Under the pieces are notes generated by a model that was given only the letters and a program-made list of their open reading frames with translations, searched no databases and had not been told where the DNA came from. The position numbers and the translations under genes are program-made. This document shows positions 1 through 9,590 of a DNA stretch of 64,000 bases, piece by piece. Source of the stretch: Acidimicrobiaceae bacterium (GTDB taxonomy: Bacteria > Actinomycetota > Acidimicrobiia > Acidimicrobiales > JAUTXP01); the NCBI GenBank assembly GCA_030837965.1, contig JAUTXP010000040.1:1-64000 (forward strand), written 5' to 3'. Every line of letters starts with the position of its first letter. The stretch's first letter is position 1.

Positions 1-355
1 CCCCCCCCCCCCCGACCGGGGAGGATCGCATATCGGGCCCCGTTTAAACGGTCGTGTTTGGATCGCTATGCGGCGAAGTCACGTCTACATACGCACAACT
101 GCGAGGGGCGTGTCACTTCAACAGCGAGGTTGTTCCTTGCGGTGACCTCGACTGACCCTTAGGGGGACAACATGTCGCCGCGAGCGAGAAAGTCCGCGAC
201 TTCGGGTCCTCTCGTTCGTACTGGTGAATGAACGCGAGTGACCGGCGTTCGTCAAGCTGGGGAAATGGGGGTCACTGCTTGCCCGGTCTAGGCCGCAGAC
301 AGGTAGTGCGGTATTTACATGCTGGAAGCCGGAAGGCTCCGTCCTGAAAGGTCGT
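1..355. other. Leader region with no recognised gene
   Basis: This stretch opens with a run of 13 C, which may be a contig end or a homopolymer artefact. No convincing gene was seen: the one short leftward reading frame overlaps the start of the protease gene and has no recognisable domain. The only functional element I can support is the GAAAGG ribosome binding site at about 346-351, just before the TTG start of the protease. No clear promoter was recognised. Confidence 0.5.
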
Positions 356-3300
356 TTGTTGACGCATATCGGAAACTTCCGGGGGAGGCGTGCCCACCCA
401 CGCCGAACTGGCCGCTTCGCAGCGGCATTCCTGGGCATCCTCACGATGCTCCTGGCGTTACCGGTCGTCCCGGCCGGAGCGAGCCTCGATGATCCGTACT
501 GCCGTCAGATTGACGGTTCGCTTGTCGATCTCTTCAACCGGCCGCTCCCAAACGTCTATGTGGAGGTCCACAGCGCCAACGACTACTGCCATTCCGGTGC
601 AGACACACCGCAAGCGCAGACGGATGCCGCTGGCCATTACATCATCTTTGCTCGTGCCCTTCTGCCCACGGACACCGTGCAGATCGAAGTGTCCCCTTCG
701 GACACCTTCTACGCCGGTATGGGTGCGGCGTCACCGGCGCCCTTGCCGACGAAGCCGAACGTGCTGACTGCCTACTACCTGGTGCGTCCGCAGACCTGGA
801 GTCAGGCCGTACGGTCGGGTGGAAGCATCAACCTCAACGCCTACGGCCTTGTACCCCGGCCAACCGACGATCCGGCCGGTACGGTTGTCGCCGAGGTGCC
901 GGGTGGGTCCCTCATCAATTTGGCCCCGCCCGCGGGTGACTCCCGCACGACTCCGTGGGTGGGATCACTGTCAACCACTCAGGCGGCAGAGGGTTTCTAC
1001 AGCTTCTACGTCTGTGCGCCGCGTGCAAGCTATGCCGGCCGGTGCAGTACGGCCACTCAGGCGGATCTGTTGTCGGCCGTCCCCGTTCAGCGGGGGTACT
1101 ACGCAGTCGACAATACTTCGCCGACGGTTAGTCAAGATACATGGGTGCCATCGGACGGTGGCGCGACGGCTTACGTCTCGCAGCCGATTATGGTCAAGGT
1201 GGCGGATGCCCTATCGGGCGTGGACGCCACGAAGTCCAGCTTTGTGCTGGAGGACGTCACGGCCGGCACGTCGCGGACGATTTCGGGGAGCGCCGTCAGC
1301 TATGCCAACGGCTGGCTCAAGACCACGGCTCAGGCGTTGGTTGACGGCCACCTCTACCGGGCCTCGGTTACGGCCGTTGACCGGACGGGCAACACCGCGA
1401 CGGCTGCCATGAAGGCTCCCGAGGAGGGTGGGGGTTTTCTGGTCACTCACCAGAGCGCGCAGCCAACTCAGGCCAGCATCAGCATGACCGATTGCTCCCT
1501 GAGCCCGGTGACGCCTGGTGCCACTACTCGCTCAGCCACCTGCTCCAACGTGCCGCTCCATCTTGACGCCTCCAGTGTCGTGTTGGGCGGCTCACGACAG
1601 GAAGGTGCCGGTTTTCTTGACCAGGTTGTGTCACTCGGTGCCCTCAGAGTGACGACGTTGCAGCAGCGCGCTCTGGCGCAGAACGCTTTCAGCTCGGCAC
1701 CGGCGCCGCGTAAGCAGCCGGTGCGGTTTGCGGTGTCGCCCTTCCAGGGCGACCGGGCACTTTCCGCGCCGGCCTTCGATGGCGTCCTGCCGGGTGGACC
1801 CATCACTCTGCAGGTGCCAGCCGTGTGGACCGACACCCAGATCTTCCTCGATCCGGCAATGACGACGGCCAGCACCGAAACGTGCGCGGACCCCTCTGGC
1901 TCCACCAAGGCGACTACCTGCCTGCCCGACCCAGTATCTCGCGATTACGTCTTCACCGTGCGTGATACCACCGACGTAGCGGGGACGGCCAATGCGGAGA
2001 CGGCCGGTACCGGTTGCACGGTCAACGCCGTTCTGGACGAAAGCTACCTGGCAACGTGTCCCTTGGCCGACCTCCTGACCTTGGCGACTGATCCGCGCAA
2101 TGCCAGCAGCCAGCCTCTGTTGCCAGAGACGCCGACGGTCAACGACCCCAGCTTTGACCCGCAACTTGAGCAGTTGATCCAGGACCAGGCGGCGGCGGTG
2201 GGGGACCGCTTCGGCGGCGCTAGCTGGGAAACGGGCGGACTGGTGACCTTCCGCTTGACGGCTGGTGACGTGCCGGCAGCGCTGCAGAGCAATGCCAAGA
2301 TCCGGGTGCAGCAAGTGCAGTTTGCGATCTCCGCCCTCGATGCGGCTATGGACACGGTCGCCAACCGTCTCAACCCCCTGTTGGCGCCCGGGATCGCCCC
2401 CGGCAGGTCCGGCGACGCCTGGCCGTGGGAGGCCGCTGTCGACGTCGATGTGAACAAGGTGGTAGTGGCGATTGGTCCGGCGCAGGCGCCCAACGACAGC
2501 GCCATCCGCAATTCCCTGGCGGACCTGGTGACTGCCGGGACCGTTGCTCCCATTACCTATCAACCGGTTCTACCTCTTGCTGTGGACGAGTCGACGAGCT
2601 GCCTGTCGCAGGATGACTGTACGAGTCCGGTCCGGGCCGGGGTGGCGATTGTCCGCCCGGTGGGGGGTAACGCCGCAGCGCTGTGCACTTCTGCCTTCAC
2701 CATGGTCGACGGCCTAGGCGTCCGCCACGTGAGTACCGCTGGCCACTGTGGTGGCGGAACGTGGCGGCATCACGGCAGCGATATCGGCAATACCACTTGG
2801 ATCAGGAATAGTGGCAATATTGATTTCCAGGCCTTTCGAGCAAACAACGACACCAGCAAAACGCCCGAAAACTACCTCTACAGGCCCGGCGACCACAATC
2901 TCCGGATTGACAAGGAGATTATTAAGCCCAGCGCCACCAAGGGCAACGAAGTCTGCGGTGTTGGCGCAGTTGGAGGCCAGCAGTGCGGCAAGATGGAAAC
3001 CCACAATGCTTCGTTCAATGGCCAGCCCGGTTATGGCAAGATGAGTGCAGCCGAGACTTGCCATGGCGACAGCGGCGGGCCGGTCTTTAACGCTTCTAAC
3101 AATCGGGCCTATGGCTTCCACAAGGGCGGCACCGGTGCCAACGGTGCCACTTGCACGACTGGTGATGTTAAGCGGTACTTCACCTGGGTGCTCGAGGTCG
3201 AGAAGGCCTCGGGCTATCACGTGCTACTGGGGCCCGCTAGTGCCACTCTGGGATCGGGCCAGCGAATGTACTGCGGCGACTACCTGCGGTCCAATAATGG

Positions 3301-3595
3301 CCGGTATTCGCTCGTCATGCAGTGTGACGGCAACCTGGTCGCCTACGAGACGGGCGAGTACGGTTCAACGTCATTCTGGTCCAGTGGCACCCACTGTTGT
3401 GACCTGTCGGGCTACAGCGCCGTCATGCAGAACGATGGAATTTTGGTGATCTATAGCCCGACTGGCACGGCTAAATGGGCACGCGGTTGTTGTGCCGCTG
3501 GGACCCGTCTTACCCTGCAAGACGACCGCAATATCGTCATGTATCGTCCGGATGGAAGCGCGGCCTGGGCATCCGGTACGAATGTCAACTATTAG
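356..3595 (+). CDS. Secreted trypsin-like serine protease with C-terminal bulb-type lectin domain
   Basis: A 1079-residue exported endopeptidase. It begins at TTG behind GAAAGG and has an N-terminal signal peptide (about residues 15-42). A long region of Ig-like or carboxypeptidase-like character follows, then a segment around residues 658-737 that is shared with the small gene just downstream. The peptidase domain shows a complete chymotrypsin-type triad: TAGHC (H797), NIDF (D823) and GDSGGP (S906). The last ~110 residues carry three bulb-lectin repeats of the type 'VMQxDGNLVxY' ending in W-A-x-G, usually a mannose-binding fold. Cysteines are frequent, as expected for an extracellular protein. 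Base composition is visibly less GC-rich than the rest of the window, which suggests transfer or relaxed selection. The protease call is firm; the substrate is unknown. Confidence 0.88.
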   Translation: MLTHIGNFRGRRAHPRRTGRFAAAFLGILTMLLALPVVPAGASLDDPYCRQIDGSLVDLFNRPLPNVYVEVHSANDYCHSGADTPQAQTDAAGHYIIFARALLPTDTVQIEVSPSDTFYAGMGAASPAPLPTKPNVLTAYYLVRPQTWSQAVRSGGSINLNAYGLVPRPTDDPAGTVVAEVPGGSLINLAPPAGDSRTTPWVGSLSTTQAAEGFYSFYVCAPRASYAGRCSTATQADLLSAVPVQRGYYAVDNTSPTVSQDTWVPSDGGATAYVSQPIMVKVADALSGVDATKSSFVLEDVTAGTSRTISGSAVSYANGWLKTTAQALVDGHLYRASVTAVDRTGNTATAAMKAPEEGGGFLVTHQSAQPTQASISMTDCSLSPVTPGATTRSATCSNVPLHLDASSVVLGGSRQEGAGFLDQVVSLGALRVTTLQQRALAQNAFSSAPAPRKQPVRFAVSPFQGDRALSAPAFDGVLPGGPITLQVPAVWTDTQIFLDPAMTTASTETCADPSGSTKATTCLPDPVSRDYVFTVRDTTDVAGTANAETAGTGCTVNAVLDESYLATCPLADLLTLATDPRNASSQPLLPETPTVNDPSFDPQLEQLIQDQAAAVGDRFGGASWETGGLVTFRLTAGDVPAALQSNAKIRVQQVQFAISALDAAMDTVANRLNPLLAPGIAPGRSGDAWPWEAAVDVDVNKVVVAIGPAQAPNDSAIRNSLADLVTAGTVAPITYQPVLPLAVDESTSCLSQDDCTSPVRAGVAIVRPVGGNAAALCTSAFTMVDGLGVRHVSTAGHCGGGTWRHHGSDIGNTTWIRNSGNIDFQAFRANNDTSKTPENYLYRPGDHNLRIDKEIIKPSATKGNEVCGVGAVGGQQCGKMETHNASFNGQPGYGKMSAAETCHGDSGGPVFNASNNRAYGFHKGGTGANGATCTTGDVKRYFTWVLEVEKASGYHVLLGPASATLGSGQRMYCGDYLRSNNGRYSLVMQCDGNLVAYETGEYGSTSFWSSGTHCCDLSGYSAVMQNDGILVIYSPTGTAKWARGCCAAGTRLTLQDDRNIVMYRPDGSAAWASGTNVNY

Positions 3596-3702
3596 ATATA
3601 CCTGCAAGGTGAGCTGACGGCCTCCGGCCTCGATGATGGATGTTTCCTCGGAGCCGCGGCGTTTGCGGCATTAACTGCGGATCTCTTAACTGAGTTCGGC
3701 CG

Positions 3703-3730
3703 TTGACCAATTATGGTTTTTGGCTATAGG
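3703..3730 (+). promoter_or_regulatory. Sigma-70-like promoter for the downstream anchored protein
   Basis: TTGACC at 3703-3708 and TATAGG at 3725-3730 are separated by 16 bp, a good match to housekeeping -35/-10 spacing. The region is locally AT-rich. It lies about 50 bp before the gene start, so it probably gives that gene transcription separate from the protease. Confidence 0.45.
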
Positions 3731-3780
3731 ATTGCAACCTGTGCCAAGGGTGGTCTTCGCAACCCGAAGGGATGGCTGGG

Positions 3781-4257
3781 ATGCAGTACGTGGCAAGGCC
3801 TCGAACAGTGTTGCGCCTGACCGGCCGTAAGGTCGGCTTGGGGGTAGTTGTGGCCATCGTGGTGGGGGTGGGGGTCTTCGGGCTGATGCGCCCGCACGGG
3901 ACGACCGTGGCGGCTGGATCGGCATCTGCGGCGACTGGCACTAAGACGTGCCAGTCGTCCGACGCTGCCAGCGCGGACGATGATCCCTGTACCGTAGAAG
4001 CGGATCACCTCGATGCCGTGATGGACACGGTCGCTAGCCGGCTAAACGCGCTTCTGGCTCCCACTGGAACCGCCCTGCTGTCTGGCGCATGGCCATGGGA
4101 AGCAGCAGTCGACCTGAATCGACACGTTGTGACTGTGACGGTCGACCCCAGCCAGCGGGTCAAGGACTCTGCCATTCGGGCGGCTCTGGCCGACGAACTG
4201 AAGGCCGGCACCGTTCACCTTCGCTATGCATCGGTCCAACCGGTTAGTGCCGATTAG
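3781..4257 (+). CDS. Small membrane-anchored protein related to the protease pro-segment
   Basis: About 158 residues. I chose the ATG at 3781 because GAAGGG at 3766-3771 is well spaced from it, while it directly abuts the ATG at 3772. The protein has a basic N-terminus, one membrane helix (about residues 18-38) and a small extracytoplasmic domain. From 'LDAVMDTVASRLN' to the end it closely follows residues 658-737 of the protease encoded upstream, including the matching blocks AWPWEAAVD and DSAIR. In the protease this segment lies just before the catalytic domain, where propeptides that assist folding or inhibit the enzyme usually sit. A stand-alone, membrane-tethered copy could act on the protease in trans; that function is inference. 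Confidence 0.75.
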   Translation: MQYVARPRTVLRLTGRKVGLGVVVAIVVGVGVFGLMRPHGTTVAAGSASAATGTKTCQSSDAASADDDPCTVEADHLDAVMDTVASRLNALLAPTGTALLSGAWPWEAAVDLNRHVVTVTVDPSQRVKDSAIRAALADELKAGTVHLRYASVQPVSAD

Positions 4258-4373
4258 CGGCTCCGATTGCGGCGGCGGGGAGTTCGCTGCGGCGTAAAAG
4301 CCCCGTTGGTGTCCGCCCACCAGCCGCACGCCAGCGCGCCCGGCGTGCAGGGGTTGGTGTCGTCGAAGTTCTG

Positions 4374-4936
4374 TCAGCCGATTCGGTCGACGTAAGCGTT
4401 CCCCTCGACGCCGCCCCGTTGCTCAGCGCCCGTGTTGGGCTGCCCGTCGTAGTAGCAGTTGCCGCACCCGTCGCCCACGCTCTCGTCGGTGCCGCCGGCC
4501 GGGCCGGAGTTGAACGCCCACTGAGGGTCGATGTAGACGGGGTAGACGCGCGCCGGGTCGCTCGCCCATTTTGACGGGATGGCGACCTCGATGCCCAACC
4601 CTGCTGGGTCTTGACCAGCTTCGGCACCGCGGCACGGGCGGTCGATGACGCGGCGGGACCCCGGCGCGACGGCGTCGGGCCACACGGCGTCGTCGGGGAG
4701 TGAGGCGATGCGGCCGTGCTCGTCGGGAGCGTGCGAGAAGTCGCCCGCCGGCGTCGATGGCATGGATGGGGCGGTGCTGGCGTCGGGGAGGGAACGGGTT
4801 TGAGGTCGGCGGCACGGCCGCGGGCTGCGGCCGCCGCCGGGGCAATGGGCACGGCGGCTGTGATCCCTGCGAGAGCCGCTACGCCCACGAGTGTGTTCAG
4901 TAGACGGCGTGCAGCAGAGGTCGAAGTTCGTCCCAT
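4374..4936 (-). pseudogene. Relic of a secreted RHS/DNRLRE-type protein N-terminus
   Basis: Leftward remnant that starts with a clear signal peptide (MGRTSTSAARRLL...AAVPIAPAAAAA). The reading then moves between frames: one carries 'FSHAPDEHGRIASLPDDAVWPDAV', a second 'AVPKLVKTQQG', and the first again 'LGIEVAIPSKWASDPARVYPV' followed by YIDPQW. The 'DPAR-YPVYIDP' pattern is typical of N-terminal parts of actinobacterial RHS-repeat and DNRLRE-domain wall proteins. The frame ends at 4374 after only about 190 codons, where intact relatives continue for many hundreds. At least two or three frame changes are needed to join the pieces, so I call it broken. Sequencing error cannot be excluded, but several disabled genes lie side by side here. 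Confidence 0.6.
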
Positions 4937-5061
4937 TCCCCAGTCCCTTTGGGCTCATCGCGTTCGGGTATCCCGCGGCGGGTGGTGGCCGTGGTAGCCG
5001 TCGCGCGGATGCAAGGCCGACGGTAGGGAGGCCGCGGTCCCGCGTCGAGGGGCGGGATGGG

Positions 5062-5639
5062 GTGCCTTCGGAGACGGTCGTGTTGTCGAACGTCCCCGTT
5101 GACGGCAGGCCCTTGCGTGATCGCCCGCTCCGCGAGCGTTTCCAGGTCGAGCGCAAGTTCGACGTCCGGGCGTGGATTGGCAACGGCATTCTCATGGTGT
5201 CACCACACAGCGCCGCGCATTCGCTGTGGCGCTTCACGGACGACGACGGCCGCATGCGGGGGTGGTACGCCAACCTCGAAGCGCCACATTGGCGAAGCCC
5301 GCGGGCGACCCACACTCGAGACCACGTGCTCGATGTTTGGTTCGACGCGGACGGGACGTGTCGCTTCAAAGATGAAGATGAGCTCGCAGCCGGTGTGTGG
5401 AGGTCGGCCGGTTCACCCTCGAAGACGCGGCTGCGATCCGAGCCGAGGGCGAGCGGCTCATTGCCAATTGGCCACGCAGCACACGATGGGACGACTGGAC
5501 GCCGCCCGGGCCCGACGCGTCGGACGCGTCGGGGGCGCCTGCGCCGGCCCTGCCCGACGCGCTCCATGCGCTCCATGGGCAGCCTGCTTCCCCAGAGGCA
5601 ATCCTCGCGTTCTGTCGCCACTGGGGATCGTCGGACTAA
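5062..5639 (+). pseudogene. DUF402 family protein, frameshifted
   Basis: The family is recognisable from 'GWYANLEAPHW', 'LDVWFDADGTCRFKDEDEL' and the tail 'GRFTLEDAAAIRAEGERLI', which match the usual DUF402 order (W-Y-x-N-L-E, then D-E-D-E-L). DUF402 proteins are small cytoplasmic proteins, some with nucleoside phosphatase-like folds. The first part reads in one frame up to about 5396 and the rest in another. The break lies in GGTGTGTGGAGG near 5392-5403: removing one TG restores 'AAGVEVGRFT'. A dinucleotide gain by slippage is therefore the simplest explanation, either a real mutation or a sequencing error. The GTG at 5062 is the likely start, though an upstream start is possible. Confidence 0.65.
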
Positions 5640-6332: not shown

Positions 6333-6650
6333 CTATCGGACCTGCGTGATGTCGAACGACGTGCGCCGGTCGGTGAGGAACGTGAAGACGCCAGCGATCC
6401 TGACTGCGTGACCGGGGGAGAGCGAAGGCAGTTGCTCAGCGGGGAACCAGTCGAGCTCCAGCACCTCATCCGGTGTCGCCGGGCCGCCGTGCCGGTCGCC
6501 AACTGGTCGGCACAGAAAGACGAAGTGGTACAACTGCAGCGACGAGCCGGACTCGCACAGCCGGGAGTCCCAGACCCCGACCAGGTCGGTGGCTTGGACG
6601 ACAAGACCGGTCTCCTCGAGCGCCTCGCGCCCGGCCCCCTCCGCCGTGAG
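6333..6650 (-). pseudogene. Nudix hydrolase, 5'-truncated inside the Nudix box
   Basis: Leftward fragment of about 106 codons reading 'EGAGREALEETGL' (second half of the Nudix box, RE-x-x-EE-x-G), then 'VGVWDSRLCESGSSLQLYHF' and 'PDEVLELDWFPAEQLP', typical of the Nudix C-terminal half. It ends at a TAG at 6333. The first glycine and glutamate of the Nudix box and everything upstream are missing. The homology stops at about 6647-6652, exactly where sequence related to the binding-protein family begins on the other strand. This is a recombination or deletion junction, and the enzyme would be inactive. Confidence 0.65.
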
Positions 6651-6651
6651 G

Positions 6652-7859
6652 CCGGGCTACCCCAGCGACTTCGAGCCGTTGGTGGAGCACTTCAACCGGC
6701 GGTATGAGTTCTACGGTCGCAAGCTCCGCTTGGAGAAGGTGCCCTACAACTTCCGGGACACGGCCGCGTCAGTGTCCGCGGCCGACGAGATAGTGGATGG
6801 CTTCGCCTTCTTGATGCCCCACCAGAACTTCCCGGACGTGGGCGCCATCCAGCGTGAGGCGGCCCGCCGCAAGATGCTGTCGGTCATCGGCTTCTTCGCC
6901 ATTCGACGTCCGACACGTACCGCAAGGGCTCGCCCTACCTCTGGTCCTACGCCCCCGCGGCCGATGAAGCCGAGACCGAGGTGGGCGACTTCGCCTGCAC
7001 GTCGCTGGTCGGGAAGACGGCGGCCTTCGCCGGGCCGGACCTGCGGACCAGTCAGCGACGGTTCGCCGTCTTGCGCCAGCGGTCAGCGGACGACCCGCTC
7101 GACGTCTCAGCCCTCAATGCCGCATTGCGACGTTGCGGGATCGAGCCGCCTCCGGTGATCGACGTGAGGTTCAACGACAGCCGAGACGAGGTCGCACGCG
7201 TCGAGCTTGGTCTGCGAGACGCCCACATCACGAGCCTGCTCGTCTTCGCCAGCACCAACGACACCAGCCAGTGGGCCTCGAAGCTGTCGGGCCAATACCA
7301 CCCGGAGTGGATCATGTCCGGCCTGGGCTGGCCGGAGCAGGAGTCCCAGTGGGGGCTGGTCATGCCCGCCCAGTTCAGGTCGAGCGTGTTCGGCGCCTTC
7401 GGCGTGAGCAAGCTCCTTCCCGCGTCCGACACGCCGTCCTGGTGGGCGTTCAAGGAGGCGCATCCCGACGACGATGGCGCCGACGTGGGCTACGGCGAGT
7501 TCACCTACTTCCACATCGCGTATCGGACGCTGCTTCTGTTGGCGTCAGGCATCCAGATGGCCGGACCGCGCCTGACGCCAGAATCCTTCGCGGCCGGGCT
7601 CCAGAAGGCTCGATTCCCGAACCCCGCGGCGGGAATGGCGCCGTACTACCAGAGCCATATCCGATTCGGGCCAGGCGACTTCACCATGACCTACGGCTCG
7701 GCCGTGGTGTGGTGGAACGACTCGGCGCCGTCGTACACCGGCGGGGGCATCTATCAAAACGGGGGATGGTGCTACGTGCGACGAGGGGCCCGGTTCTCGC
7801 GGGACTGGGTCGACCTCTCGGGCGAGCTGTTCAGCCCCGACCCGCGGGCATGTCGGTGA
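6652..7859 (+). pseudogene. Truncated, frameshifted type I periplasmic-binding-like protein (copy 1)
   Basis: Fourth member of the local binding-protein family. It starts abruptly at 'GYPSDFEPLVEHFNRRYEFYGRKLRL', equivalent to about residue 155 of the intact copies, so the signal anchor, Cys-rich linker and first strand are gone. It runs in one frame to about 6900, then shifts. Losing one base near 6902 explains the break, because the second frame resumes with 'STSDTYRKGSPYLWSYAPAADEAE' and continues intact to the family's usual ending 'LFSPDPRACR'. The second part is long enough to be mistaken for a gene of its own. The intact copy 2 lies tail to tail with it, 36 bp away. Confidence 0.8.
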
Positions 7860-7895: not shown

Positions 7896-9590
7896 TCAGC
7901 GGCAGGCGCGGGGATCCGGGTCGAACAGCTCCGAGGTGAGGTTGGTCCAGTCGCGGCCGAACCGCTCGCCCTTGCGGACGTAGCACCAGCCGCCCTCCTT
8001 GCTGATGCCGCCGCCGCCATAGGAGGGCGCGGTGTCGTTCCACCACACCACGCTCGCTGAGTCGACCATGGAGAAGTCGCCGGGTCCGAAGCCAACGTGG
8101 GCCTGGTAGTAGGGCGGGCCGGCCGCGCCCGGGTTGGGGAATCGAGCCTTCGCCAGCCCGGCCGCGAACGACTCCGGCGTCAGGTTGGGCCCTGCCATCT
8201 GGACTCCGGACGCCAGCACCAAGAGCGAGTGGTAGATGCGCGTGAAGTTGCCGTCGCCCGCCGGGTCCTGAGGGACGGTCTCGCTCTCGTTCGGACCGGG
8301 ACCGTCGAGATAGGCCCAGTAACTCGGCGTGTCAGCCTTGGGCAGCAGCTTGTTGAGGACGTAGGTGCCAAACAGGCTGCGGCGGTGGTTGGGCGGGGCC
8401 ACCACCATCCACTGGGCCTCGTTCTCGTGGCTGTTGACGCCCGACACCACCCACTCGGGTTCGAACGTCTTCGGCAGCTTCGACATGAACTGGGTGATCT
8501 CATCGGCCGTGGCCAGGATGAGGATGCTGGTGATCCCGTCCTGTTGCCACCGGGCGTACGTGTTGCTCACGTAGGCCGGGTCGTCGTCACTGCTCTGATC
8601 GAGCTCCACCGTGTCCGGCGTGGGCAGGTTGCAGCCTGCAAGCGTGGCGTGCAGCGCGCTGAGGTCGGGTCGCTTGCCGCCCTCTTTGGATGTGACCACT
8701 GCGTAGCGCCGTGGCTTGGTCCGCAGGTCGGCGCCCGCGAACTGGGCCAGTCCCGCTCCCAACGTTGAGCACGTGAATCGCCCGAGGCTGGTCTCGATCT
8801 CGTCGATGGCGGGGGCGTAGGTCCATGCGAACGGCGCCATCTTGCGGTACAGCTCAGTGGTCGCGTACCCGCCCGACCCCAGCGCGGTGATGACGTGGCG
8901 GCGCGAAGCCTCGGGCTGAATCTCTTCGCCGTGGATGTCGTCGACCACCATCCCGAAGGCCTTGGCCTCCTCATCGGCCGCTACCGCCTGCGTGCGGGGC
9001 TCGGAGCCGTAGGGAATGTTCACCAACCGCAGCTTGCGACCGTAGAACTCGTAGCGCCGGTTGAAATGATCGATCAGCAAGCGGGCGGTGTAGTTCTGGC
9101 CGCTCGTGACGGCGATGCGCACTTCGTCGCGGGTCACTCCCTTGCTCGTGGCCCCGCCGTTGTCGCCCTCGAAGTAGTTGATGCACGGAGGGGACTGCGG
9201 GTCCTCGGTTTGACGCGGCGGATCCCCGATGCAGCGGCGCACGCGGGCGGTGTCGACTTGGCCGCCGCCGTCTCGGTCTGCGGCGGGTGGCGCGGAGGTA
9301 GTGGTCGTGACGCCCAAACCACCGCCCCCGTCGGCGCAGACCATCCCGGGCGCGCAGTCGCCGCCTTCGCCCGTGCCGAAGTTGCTGGACTGCGCCTTCA
9401 GCGCCTCATCGATGCGGTCCTCGGCGCGGGGCGCGAACTCGGCCAGCGCGGGCGGGCCCGGGGGCGTGACGACCAAGGCGAGCATGGCCACGGCCAGCAT
9501 CGTGACCAGGGCGACGAGGCCGTGGACCACGGCCACCCGGCCTGAGGCCCGCTTCGACCCGCGCTTGGACCCCGGCGCGGCCGCGGTCAA
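7896..9590 (-). CDS. Membrane-anchored type I periplasmic-binding-like protein (copy 2)
   Basis: 564 residues. The start is a TTG with GGAG six bases upstream. One N-terminal helix (about residues 22-46, 'GLVALVTMLAVAMLALVV') is followed by a conserved 'PPGPPALAEFAPRAEDRIDEALKAQ' stretch, a Thr-rich linker and 'GDPPRQTEDPQSPPC'. The rest resembles Leu/Ile/Val-type solute-binding proteins ('HFNRRYEFYGRKLRL', 'VVWWNDTAPSY'). No lipobox is seen, so the anchor is probably an uncleaved helix. The ligand is unknown. Its leader contains a degenerate relative (9634-9646) of the TTGAGATATCAA motif. It may feed the Liv-type transporter encoded at 24416-29990, though relatives also act as sensors. Confidence 0.8.
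   Translation of the reverse strand: MTAAAPGSKRGSKRASGRVAVVHGLVALVTMLAVAMLALVVTPPGPPALAEFAPRAEDRIDEALKAQSSNFGTGEGGDCAPGMVCADGGGGLGVTTTTSAPPAADRDGGGQVDTARVRRCIGDPPRQTEDPQSPPCINYFEGDNGGATSKGVTRDEVRIAVTSGQNYTARLLIDHFNRRYEFYGRKLRLVNIPYGSEPRTQAVAADEEAKAFGMVVDDIHGEEIQPEASRRHVITALGSGGYATTELYRKMAPFAWTYAPAIDEIETSLGRFTCSTLGAGLAQFAGADLRTKPRRYAVVTSKEGGKRPDLSALHATLAGCNLPTPDTVELDQSSDDDPAYVSNTYARWQQDGITSILILATADEITQFMSKLPKTFEPEWVVSGVNSHENEAQWMVVAPPNHRRSLFGTYVLNKLLPKADTPSYWAYLDGPGPNESETVPQDPAGDGNFTRIYHSLLVLASGVQMAGPNLTPESFAAGLAKARFPNPGAAGPPYYQAHVGFGPGDFSMVDSASVVWWNDTAPSYGGGGISKEGGWCYVRKGERFGRDWTNLTSELFDPDPRACR

Follow-up and report, generated by a model that had tools for sequence, protein, structure and literature searches.

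A stand-alone, probably membrane-anchored copy of a protease pro-segment lobe, and gene pairs of similar design in Acidimicrobiia

The question

What might a bacterium gain from a separate gene for part of a pro-segment that the neighboring protease already carries in full? The question is raised by the start of a 64,000-nucleotide stretch of an Acidimicrobiaceae genome (GCA_030837965.1, contig JAUTXP010000040.1, positions 1 to 64,000; hereafter the window), where a gene encoding P0001, a secreted serine protease of S1 type, is followed on the same strand by a small gene, P0002. The product of the latter lacks a catalytic domain and carries, behind a predicted membrane segment, a copy of the second lobe of the protease's own pro-segment. 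Gene pairs of this design likely arose independently in at least three lineages, and the function tentatively favored here for the small protein is that of a surface inhibitor. Alpha-lytic-type proteases are the textbook case of folding controlled by a pro-region that also inhibits, hence the interest of finding such a region on its own. Coordinates are in Table 1.

Table 1. Features of the protease and stand-alone pro-segment genes in the window
Feature	Position	Strand	Basis
P0001, secreted S1-type serine protease, 1079 amino acids, TTG start	356..3595	+	Open reading frame; Pfam/NCBIfam matches, protease and N-terminal ones below cut-off; lectin by PDB search
Two-lobed pro-segment of P0001, residues ~615-745	2198..2590	+	Alignment with streptogrisin-type L045 and Acidimicrobiia relatives; profile match 649-712, E 0.0015
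C-lobe of P0001 pro-segment, common to P0002, residues 661-744	2336..2587	+	BLASTP, 55% identity, E 2e-21
P0001 catalytic domain; His 797, Asp 823, Ser 906 (TAGHC, NID, GDSGG)	2591..3205	+	Triad columns align with L042, L043, L045
C-terminal mannose-binding (B-type) lectin domain of P0001	3245..3589	+	4oit, E 1.9e-13, plant agglutinins; NF033557
Sigma-70-like promoter site, TTGACC-18-TAGGAT	3703..3732	+	Consensus scan
Shine-Dalgarno-like GAAGGG, 9 nucleotides before ATG 3781	3766..3771	+	Read from sequence
P0002, stand-alone pro-segment protein, 158 amino acids	3781..4257	+	Open reading frame; BLASTP
Predicted transmembrane (signal-anchor) segment of P0002	3832..3888	+	Hydropathy 2.64 over 19 residues; positively charged N-terminus
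Pro-segment C-lobe domain of P0002	4009..4254	+	BLASTP to P0001 residues 661-744

A pro-segment lobe encoded twice

The P0002 ectodomain is identical to P0001 residues 661-744 at 46 of 84 positions (55%; BLASTP expectation value (E) 2e-21), with LDAxMDTVAxRLNxLLAP, SGxAWPWEAAVD, DSAIR and LAD..AGTV as the common blocks. The two genes hold the largest direct repeat within positions 1-5000 of the window (55 nucleotides, 78%), and the rest of the genome has no further copy of the shared segment, the third match having an E of 1.07. The copy begins in the helix joining both pro-segment lobes and ends where, in the neighbor, the mature protease starts. An initial annotation, made from the letters alone, had both reading frames, the start at 3781 and the blocks AWPWEAAVD, DSAIR and MDTVA-RLN right. 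A longer reading of the P0002 frame (3772-4257, 161 amino acids) is available, ATG 3781 being the better start because of the spacing of GAAGGG, which touches ATG 3772. The annotation's statement that the small gene repeats the segment before the catalytic domain applies to the second half, the C-lobe, and not to the N-lobe (P0001 residues ~615-650), which is absent from P0002 and replaced by an anchor-like segment and a linker of ~40 residues. For the membrane anchor that it proposed there is a single hydrophobic segment of 19 residues (mean Kyte-Doolittle value 2.64) preceded by charges of +5/-0; P0002 is probably membrane-anchored, with a cleaved signal peptide as the alternative. For the proposed promoter of its own there is the TTGACC-18-TAGGAT site upstream. 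The scan of 3400-4500 on both strands returned two sites against 0.1 expected, these being consensus matches and as such candidate promoters, not proof.

P0001 is composed, in order, of a signal peptide, a CarboxypepD_reg/immunoglobulin-like region (weak Pfam matches), the pro-segment, the catalytic domain and the B-lectin. Its N-terminus is of signal type, the best hydrophobic 19-mer scoring 2.23 with six positive charges before it. The His-Asp-Ser triad, in chymotrypsin order, aligns with that of the streptogrisin-type enzyme of locus L045 (E 3.7e-65 between its catalytic part and streptogrisin B) and with two relatives, L042 and L043. As the protein is below the curated S1 cut-offs (Pfam Trypsin 14.4 against 20.6 bits, the Rv1815 family 24 against 175 bits), it is filed as S1-type, a diverged member at most. 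The lectin part matches the putidacin family NF033557 at E 3.4e-15, below the family cut-off. Relatives of the pro-segment and catalytic part together are few: matches in 7 of 395 genomes of the class (E <=0.001) and in 3 of 396 of the phylum (E <=1e-5), the window's own genome included in both counts. A single-sequence search of genome contigs with the same part gave 22 stretches that matched a pattern, none of them confirmed, and tblastn of plasmids and phages gave no homologue.

An alpha-lytic-type pro-segment?

That the shared segment is the pro-segment of an S1-type protease, as first proposed, is borne out by its position directly before the catalytic domain, by the alignment of the triad with that of a streptogrisin-type enzyme, and by P0001 being the best window frame with an alpha-lytic-type pro profile. 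L045 carries the alpha-lytic protease prodomain family PF02983 (E 6.9e-10) at the place corresponding to the P0001 pro-segment. A pro profile built from L045 and Actinomycetes pro-segments was run over 324 open reading frames of the window plus named proteins in three rounds; P0001 649-712 was ranked first in each (E 0.014, 0.0015 and 0.0031), and the next unrelated window frame in the second was at E 1.1. A profile of ten such pro-segments finds the alpha-lytic pro region (Pro) 2pro_A in the PDB at E 9.5e-15, and the window segment has, like this family, a helix and an 'xWxVDxxxNxVVV' strand pattern.

Structure prediction added a hint. AlphaFold2 with the single sequence of the P0001 pro-segment and catalytic domain gave a predicted local distance difference test score (pLDDT) of 34, unusable, and with an 8-row alignment one of 36.8, too poor for use, with the pro C-lobe mostly at 45-64. 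In this poor model the C-lobe is alpha-beta-beta-alpha-beta, and Foldseek places alpha-lytic Pro 4pro_D first of 350,542 chains at E 0.047, which is not significant, with 4pro_C, 3pro_C and 3pro_D at ranks 5, 7 and 11. 4pro_D was not among the 50 rows of a VIA re-alignment, the best of which are unrelated alpha/beta folds with Z up to 7.6, a common level. Overall, the window pro-segment is likely homologous to the alpha-lytic/streptogrisin prodomain, at a borderline significance that falls short of proof.

Recurrence of the gene pair

The search for related loci gave four (L042-L045), to which a profile scan of 91 loci added frames with a pro-segment and without catalytic motifs. Fetched regions were searched both by profile and with the pro-segment of the respective protease, and 19 loci were inspected. 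Pairs are present in 7 of the 19 (the window, L042, L043, L092, L093, L094 and L096), which is not a frequency, the 19 having been chosen for presence of a protease or pro-segment. In all seven the stand-alone gene is directly downstream of the protease on the same strand, and its product has an anchor-like N-terminus and no catalytic domain. Eleven loci (L044, L045 and L097-L105) gave no stand-alone copy, four of these (L044, L101, L104 and L105) being at or near contig ends. L101, considered as a stand-alone fragment, was rejected, being the 5' portion of a protease gene that an in-frame stop interrupts. The remaining locus, L095, is an orphan with no protease beside it. Its lipoprotein-like pro-segment protein (459-1928) has an N-terminal META domain (E 1.2e-9) and matches PF02983 at E 0.047, below cut-off. 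A finding of the shared domain mostly in proteins unrelated to proteases had been set beforehand as refuting; its relatives are, this orphan apart, within or beside S1 proteases. The term 'unusual' used of the arrangement in the initial annotation is to be amended, since similar pairs appear to have arisen repeatedly in this class.

Five nucleotides separate the L042 protease gene (4243-5508) from the next one, which encodes a protein of 244 amino acids with a transmembrane segment. This protein has both pro-segment lobes complete, with 61% identity (106/173) to the cis pro-segment, and ends at the pro/mature junction. The L043 pair is built alike, with a transmembrane anchor and a 5-nucleotide gap. 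In the pairs outside the window the spacing is 5 to ~50 nucleotides, first plausible starts being taken. The L092 stand-alone protein has the lipobox LSAC, and those of L093 (LLGC), L094 (MHAC, not canonical) and L096 (AAGC) are lipoprotein-like by eye from their N-termini. By lineage, then, the anchor is a transmembrane segment in the window and in genus g15 and lipoprotein-like in genus g427. The cis pro-segment is kept in the proteases of the window, L042, L092, L093 and L094. A separate observation in L042 is a secreted protein without a catalytic domain (985-1905) that has two tandem pro-segment C-lobes and ends where its relative L011 continues into a protease domain.

Distribution is sparse. 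The L042/L043 kind of pro-segment (alignment A5) is in 2 of 51 genomes of its family, and in 170 genomes of the order it was found only in another protease, in the window's own genome (L091); the kind in L042 985-1905 and L011 (alignment A6) has a match in 7 of 198 genomes of the order. Among the matches listed in 384 Actinomycetes genomes (100 with PF02983) there was no stand-alone copy, 150 of 150 being in frames of at least 300 amino acids. For P0002 itself, plasmids and viral contigs gave no homologue, nor did the four genomes of L042-L045, in a search that was without a positive control and is weak. Over the 395 genomes of the class there was a match in 97 at E <=0.1, the best outside its own genome (1.7e-4) having three internal stops; the 97 were taken as composition noise of an Ala/Val-rich protein (not inspected singly) and not as homologues.

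History and selection

In a tree of 14 pro-segments, from which two L101 frames were left out, the stand-alone pro-segments of L092, L093 and L094 group together (100/98), and the pro-segments of the three proteases of these loci are their sister clade (88/85). Both clades are ordered (L093,(L092,L094)), and this same branching order indicates that in g427 the pair was copied as a unit. The stand-alone state needs three changes on the tree, at least two of them forced by well-supported branches, and the L042/L043 and window cases are other kinds of pro-segment than those in the tree clades. From the two together at least three origins (window, g15 and g427) are likely. As hhalign finds no significant similarity between the pro-segments of the window and of L042/L043 (E 0.1, probability 0.6%), the link between them rests on architecture and a weak common relation to streptogrisin pro-segments.

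The stand-alone copies of L042/L043 and of L092/L094 are under purifying selection: nonsynonymous (dN) and synonymous (dS) divergence is 0.27 and 1.17 for the former (dN/dS 0.23) and 0.37 and 2.26 for the latter (dN/dS 0.16), the L092/L094 proteases having dN 0.19 and dS 1.50, and the large dS values being near saturation. For the segment shared by P0001 and P0002, the corresponding values are dN 0.40, dS 1.06 and dN/dS 0.38. When one copy was simulated as neutral with omega 0.1 for the other, a dN as low as 0.40 was reached in 1% of runs.

Possible function

P0002 would be a duplicated and shortened pro-segment of the neighboring protease, tethered to the outer face of the cytoplasmic membrane. 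The cis pro-segment of P0001 would fold the enzyme during secretion and then be destroyed. The tethered C-lobe would correspond to the lobe of alpha-lytic Pro that pairs with the protease's C-terminal barrel and has its tail at the active site, and might inhibit in trans, such that enzyme lingering at or returning to the producer surface is switched off; enzyme in the medium would stay active, targeted by its lectin domain. P0002 would then play the part of an immunity protein, the attacker being a degradative or bacteriolytic protease. Alpha-lytic Pro is a strong inhibitor of its protease. A passage of PMC2829044 has it speeding folding, with the C-terminal hairpin of the protease and Pro forming a five-stranded sheet, and the pro/protease junction spanning the active site; P0002 retains the lobe and tail that correspond to these contacts. 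Surface orientation, fold, binding, inhibition and self-protection are what we infer for P0002, and a cell-surface inhibitor that protects its producer in the manner of an immunity protein is the function to which we incline, at somewhat less than even confidence. The wider proposal is possible and held more loosely: that these pairs are a class of self-protection modules with several origins in Acidimicrobiia, each made up of a secreted S1 protease and, after it, a tethered (transmembrane or lipoprotein) pro-segment copy without catalytic domain which would disarm the enzyme at the producer surface, i.e. immunity proteins derived from the attacker's propeptide.

Damage to proteases is pertinent here. 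Deletion, frame change, an in-frame stop or a missing half is seen in four loci (L043 4703-5690, L042 4101-4260, L100 (L011) and L096 5569-6033), and in three of the four (L042, L043 and L096) an intact, open stand-alone gene follows. In L043 the signal peptide and pro-segment start (4703-4966) are out of frame with the catalytic part, and the cis pro-segment has been largely deleted. The signal-peptide frame of L042 is offset by a single base from that of its protease, possibly through misassembly, and in L096 an open frame was found for the C-terminal half of the protease only. Stand-alone genes that are open beside damaged proteases favor a function independent of an intact neighbor, such as protection; orphan immunity genes likewise outlive their toxin genes.

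A trans-acting steric chaperone, the tethered copy aiding protease folding at the membrane in the manner of the lipase foldase Lif, would account for the gene order, which mirrors lipase-foldase pairs (lipase, then foldase), and for L043, where the cis pro-segment is mostly gone and the stand-alone copy complete. It is nevertheless rather unlikely. The proteases of the window, L042 and L092-L094 keep their own pro-segments, P0002 is without the N-lobe, and the L095 orphan has no client beside it; the L043 protease, which a frame change separates from its signal peptide, is probably dead, not folded with help in trans. With a complete cis pro-segment in P0001, a folding aid is not obviously needed from a second copy, and a single tethered lobe suits a surface inhibitor, so that inhibition is ranked over a foldase, and also over a docking role and a dead duplicate. 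A docking site, at which the tethered pro-segment captures secreted protease for surface display or reports its presence without inhibiting it, has an anatomy identical to that of an inhibitor, and the extra N-terminal parts of the lipoprotein-like forms (META in L095) are superfluous for a plain inhibitor; a pro-segment tail blocking the active site would, however, silence the displayed enzyme, and Pfam and NCBIfam show no signaling domain on P0002, making this quite improbable. That P0002 is a functionless remnant of a tandem duplication in which the protease gene was copied, its start being fortuitous or borrowed, is unlikely: the frame is intact, with a start, ribosome site, export segment and promoter-like site, and similar designs in other lineages are under purifying selection there. 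Yet genes nearby look broken or partial (4258-5621 on the minus strand; 6589-7859), and the dN/dS of 0.38 is between the two models.

The case for a surface inhibitor has further results to contend with. One-copy-neutral simulations reach a dN/dS of 0.38 in 13% of 300 runs, so drift of one copy is possible, and 45 of 300 simulations of neutral drift, at 0.5 substitutions per site, left a frame of P0002's length open. In the compared genome set the window genome alone represents its family, and P0002 thus has no orthologue for comparison. Pairs elsewhere are tight, whereas P0002 lies 185 nucleotides after the protease gene and has a promoter-like site of its own. The damaged proteases could also reflect decay of whole loci. 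As to the identity of the segment, neither window protein matches PF02983 (cut-off 23.4 bits) at E <=1, nor P0002 at E <=10, a difference from the alpha-lytic/streptogrisin pro-segments; P0002 alone is not distinguishable from decoys in the streptogrisin-type pro profile scan, and hhalign of the window pair with the ten pro-segments gives E 0.0021 with a probability of only 13%.

Relation to known systems

Propeptide-like inhibitors and steric chaperones are known already; what would be new is a recurring tethered pro-segment copy beside a bacterial S1 protease. No stand-alone or tethered S1 pro-segment in bacteria was apparent in the literature searched, by title and start of abstract, in open-licence texts. 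The eukaryotic propeptide-like inhibitors of MEROPS I9 and I29 are generally soluble. P0002 resembles them (I9: SUB1-ProM, TgMIC5 and fungal inhibitors; I29) in being a separate gene for a protease-propeptide copy, and differs in that their clients are eukaryotic subtilases or papain-like enzymes whereas that of P0002, a putative inhibitor and probably membrane-tethered, would be a bacterial S1 protease. A passage of PMC6993865 has the SUB1-ProM gene adjoining subtilisin genes and its product inhibiting SUB1 (MEROPS I9), and one of PMC4089206 deals with I29 propeptide-like inhibitors of papain-like enzymes, e.g. CTLA-2, crammer and BCPI. With the lipase-specific foldases (Lif/LipB/LipH), described in part of PMC13381987 as anchored steric chaperones of one secreted enzyme, P0002 has in common one hydrophobic segment and a position next downstream of its presumed client; a part of PMC3352829 presents Lif as a membrane-based steric chaperone, in a class that includes the alpha-lytic propeptide. 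Unlike Lif, P0002 copies its client's own pro-segment, of which the client usually keeps one in cis, and P0002 had no Pfam or NCBIfam match to the Lif family at E <=1. Bacteriocin or toxin-immunity pairs offer a further parallel, with a secreted-enzyme gene and then a small membrane protein, extra copies of which survive without the attacker, and the lectin domain of P0001 is of a type known from lectin-like bacteriocins; the difference is that the putative immunity protein would here derive from the attacker's own pro-segment.

The recurrence of similar pairs suggests, as a proposal, a safety catch for proteases. If so, a natural pro-segment that is anchored and has its own gene would reveal how a secreted enzyme can be silenced at home and active abroad, protease maturation would be tied to toxin-immunity logic, and ready-made specific protease inhibitors would be at hand for testing. 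Repeated origin makes the question testable by comparison of lineages.

Surrounding DNA

The window begins at base 1 of its contig (C48 in our numbering, 65,655 bases; the assembly is of 3.55 Mb in 88 contigs), which opens with a run of 13 C (1-13), perhaps an assembly end artefact, ~340 bases upstream of the protease gene. Directly after P0002, on the minus strand (4258-5621), are broken-looking frames with a 'VYPVYIDPQWAF' stretch and no Pfam match; the stretch is reminiscent of the N-terminal part of large RHS-like surface proteins. On the plus strand, 6589-7859 is a partial, apparently interrupted copy of the periplasmic-binding-protein gene that it adjoins (7896-9590, minus strand; Peripla_BP_6 E 2.8e-5, below cut-off). 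Elsewhere in the same genome, on contig C68, L091 1180-3210 encodes a second S1-type protease. Its pro-segment has two lobes (AGLWIDQQQGG..., GVDEKANRIKV...) and its tail looks by eye like a ricin-type lectin, so that the genome has at least two lectin-armed proteases.

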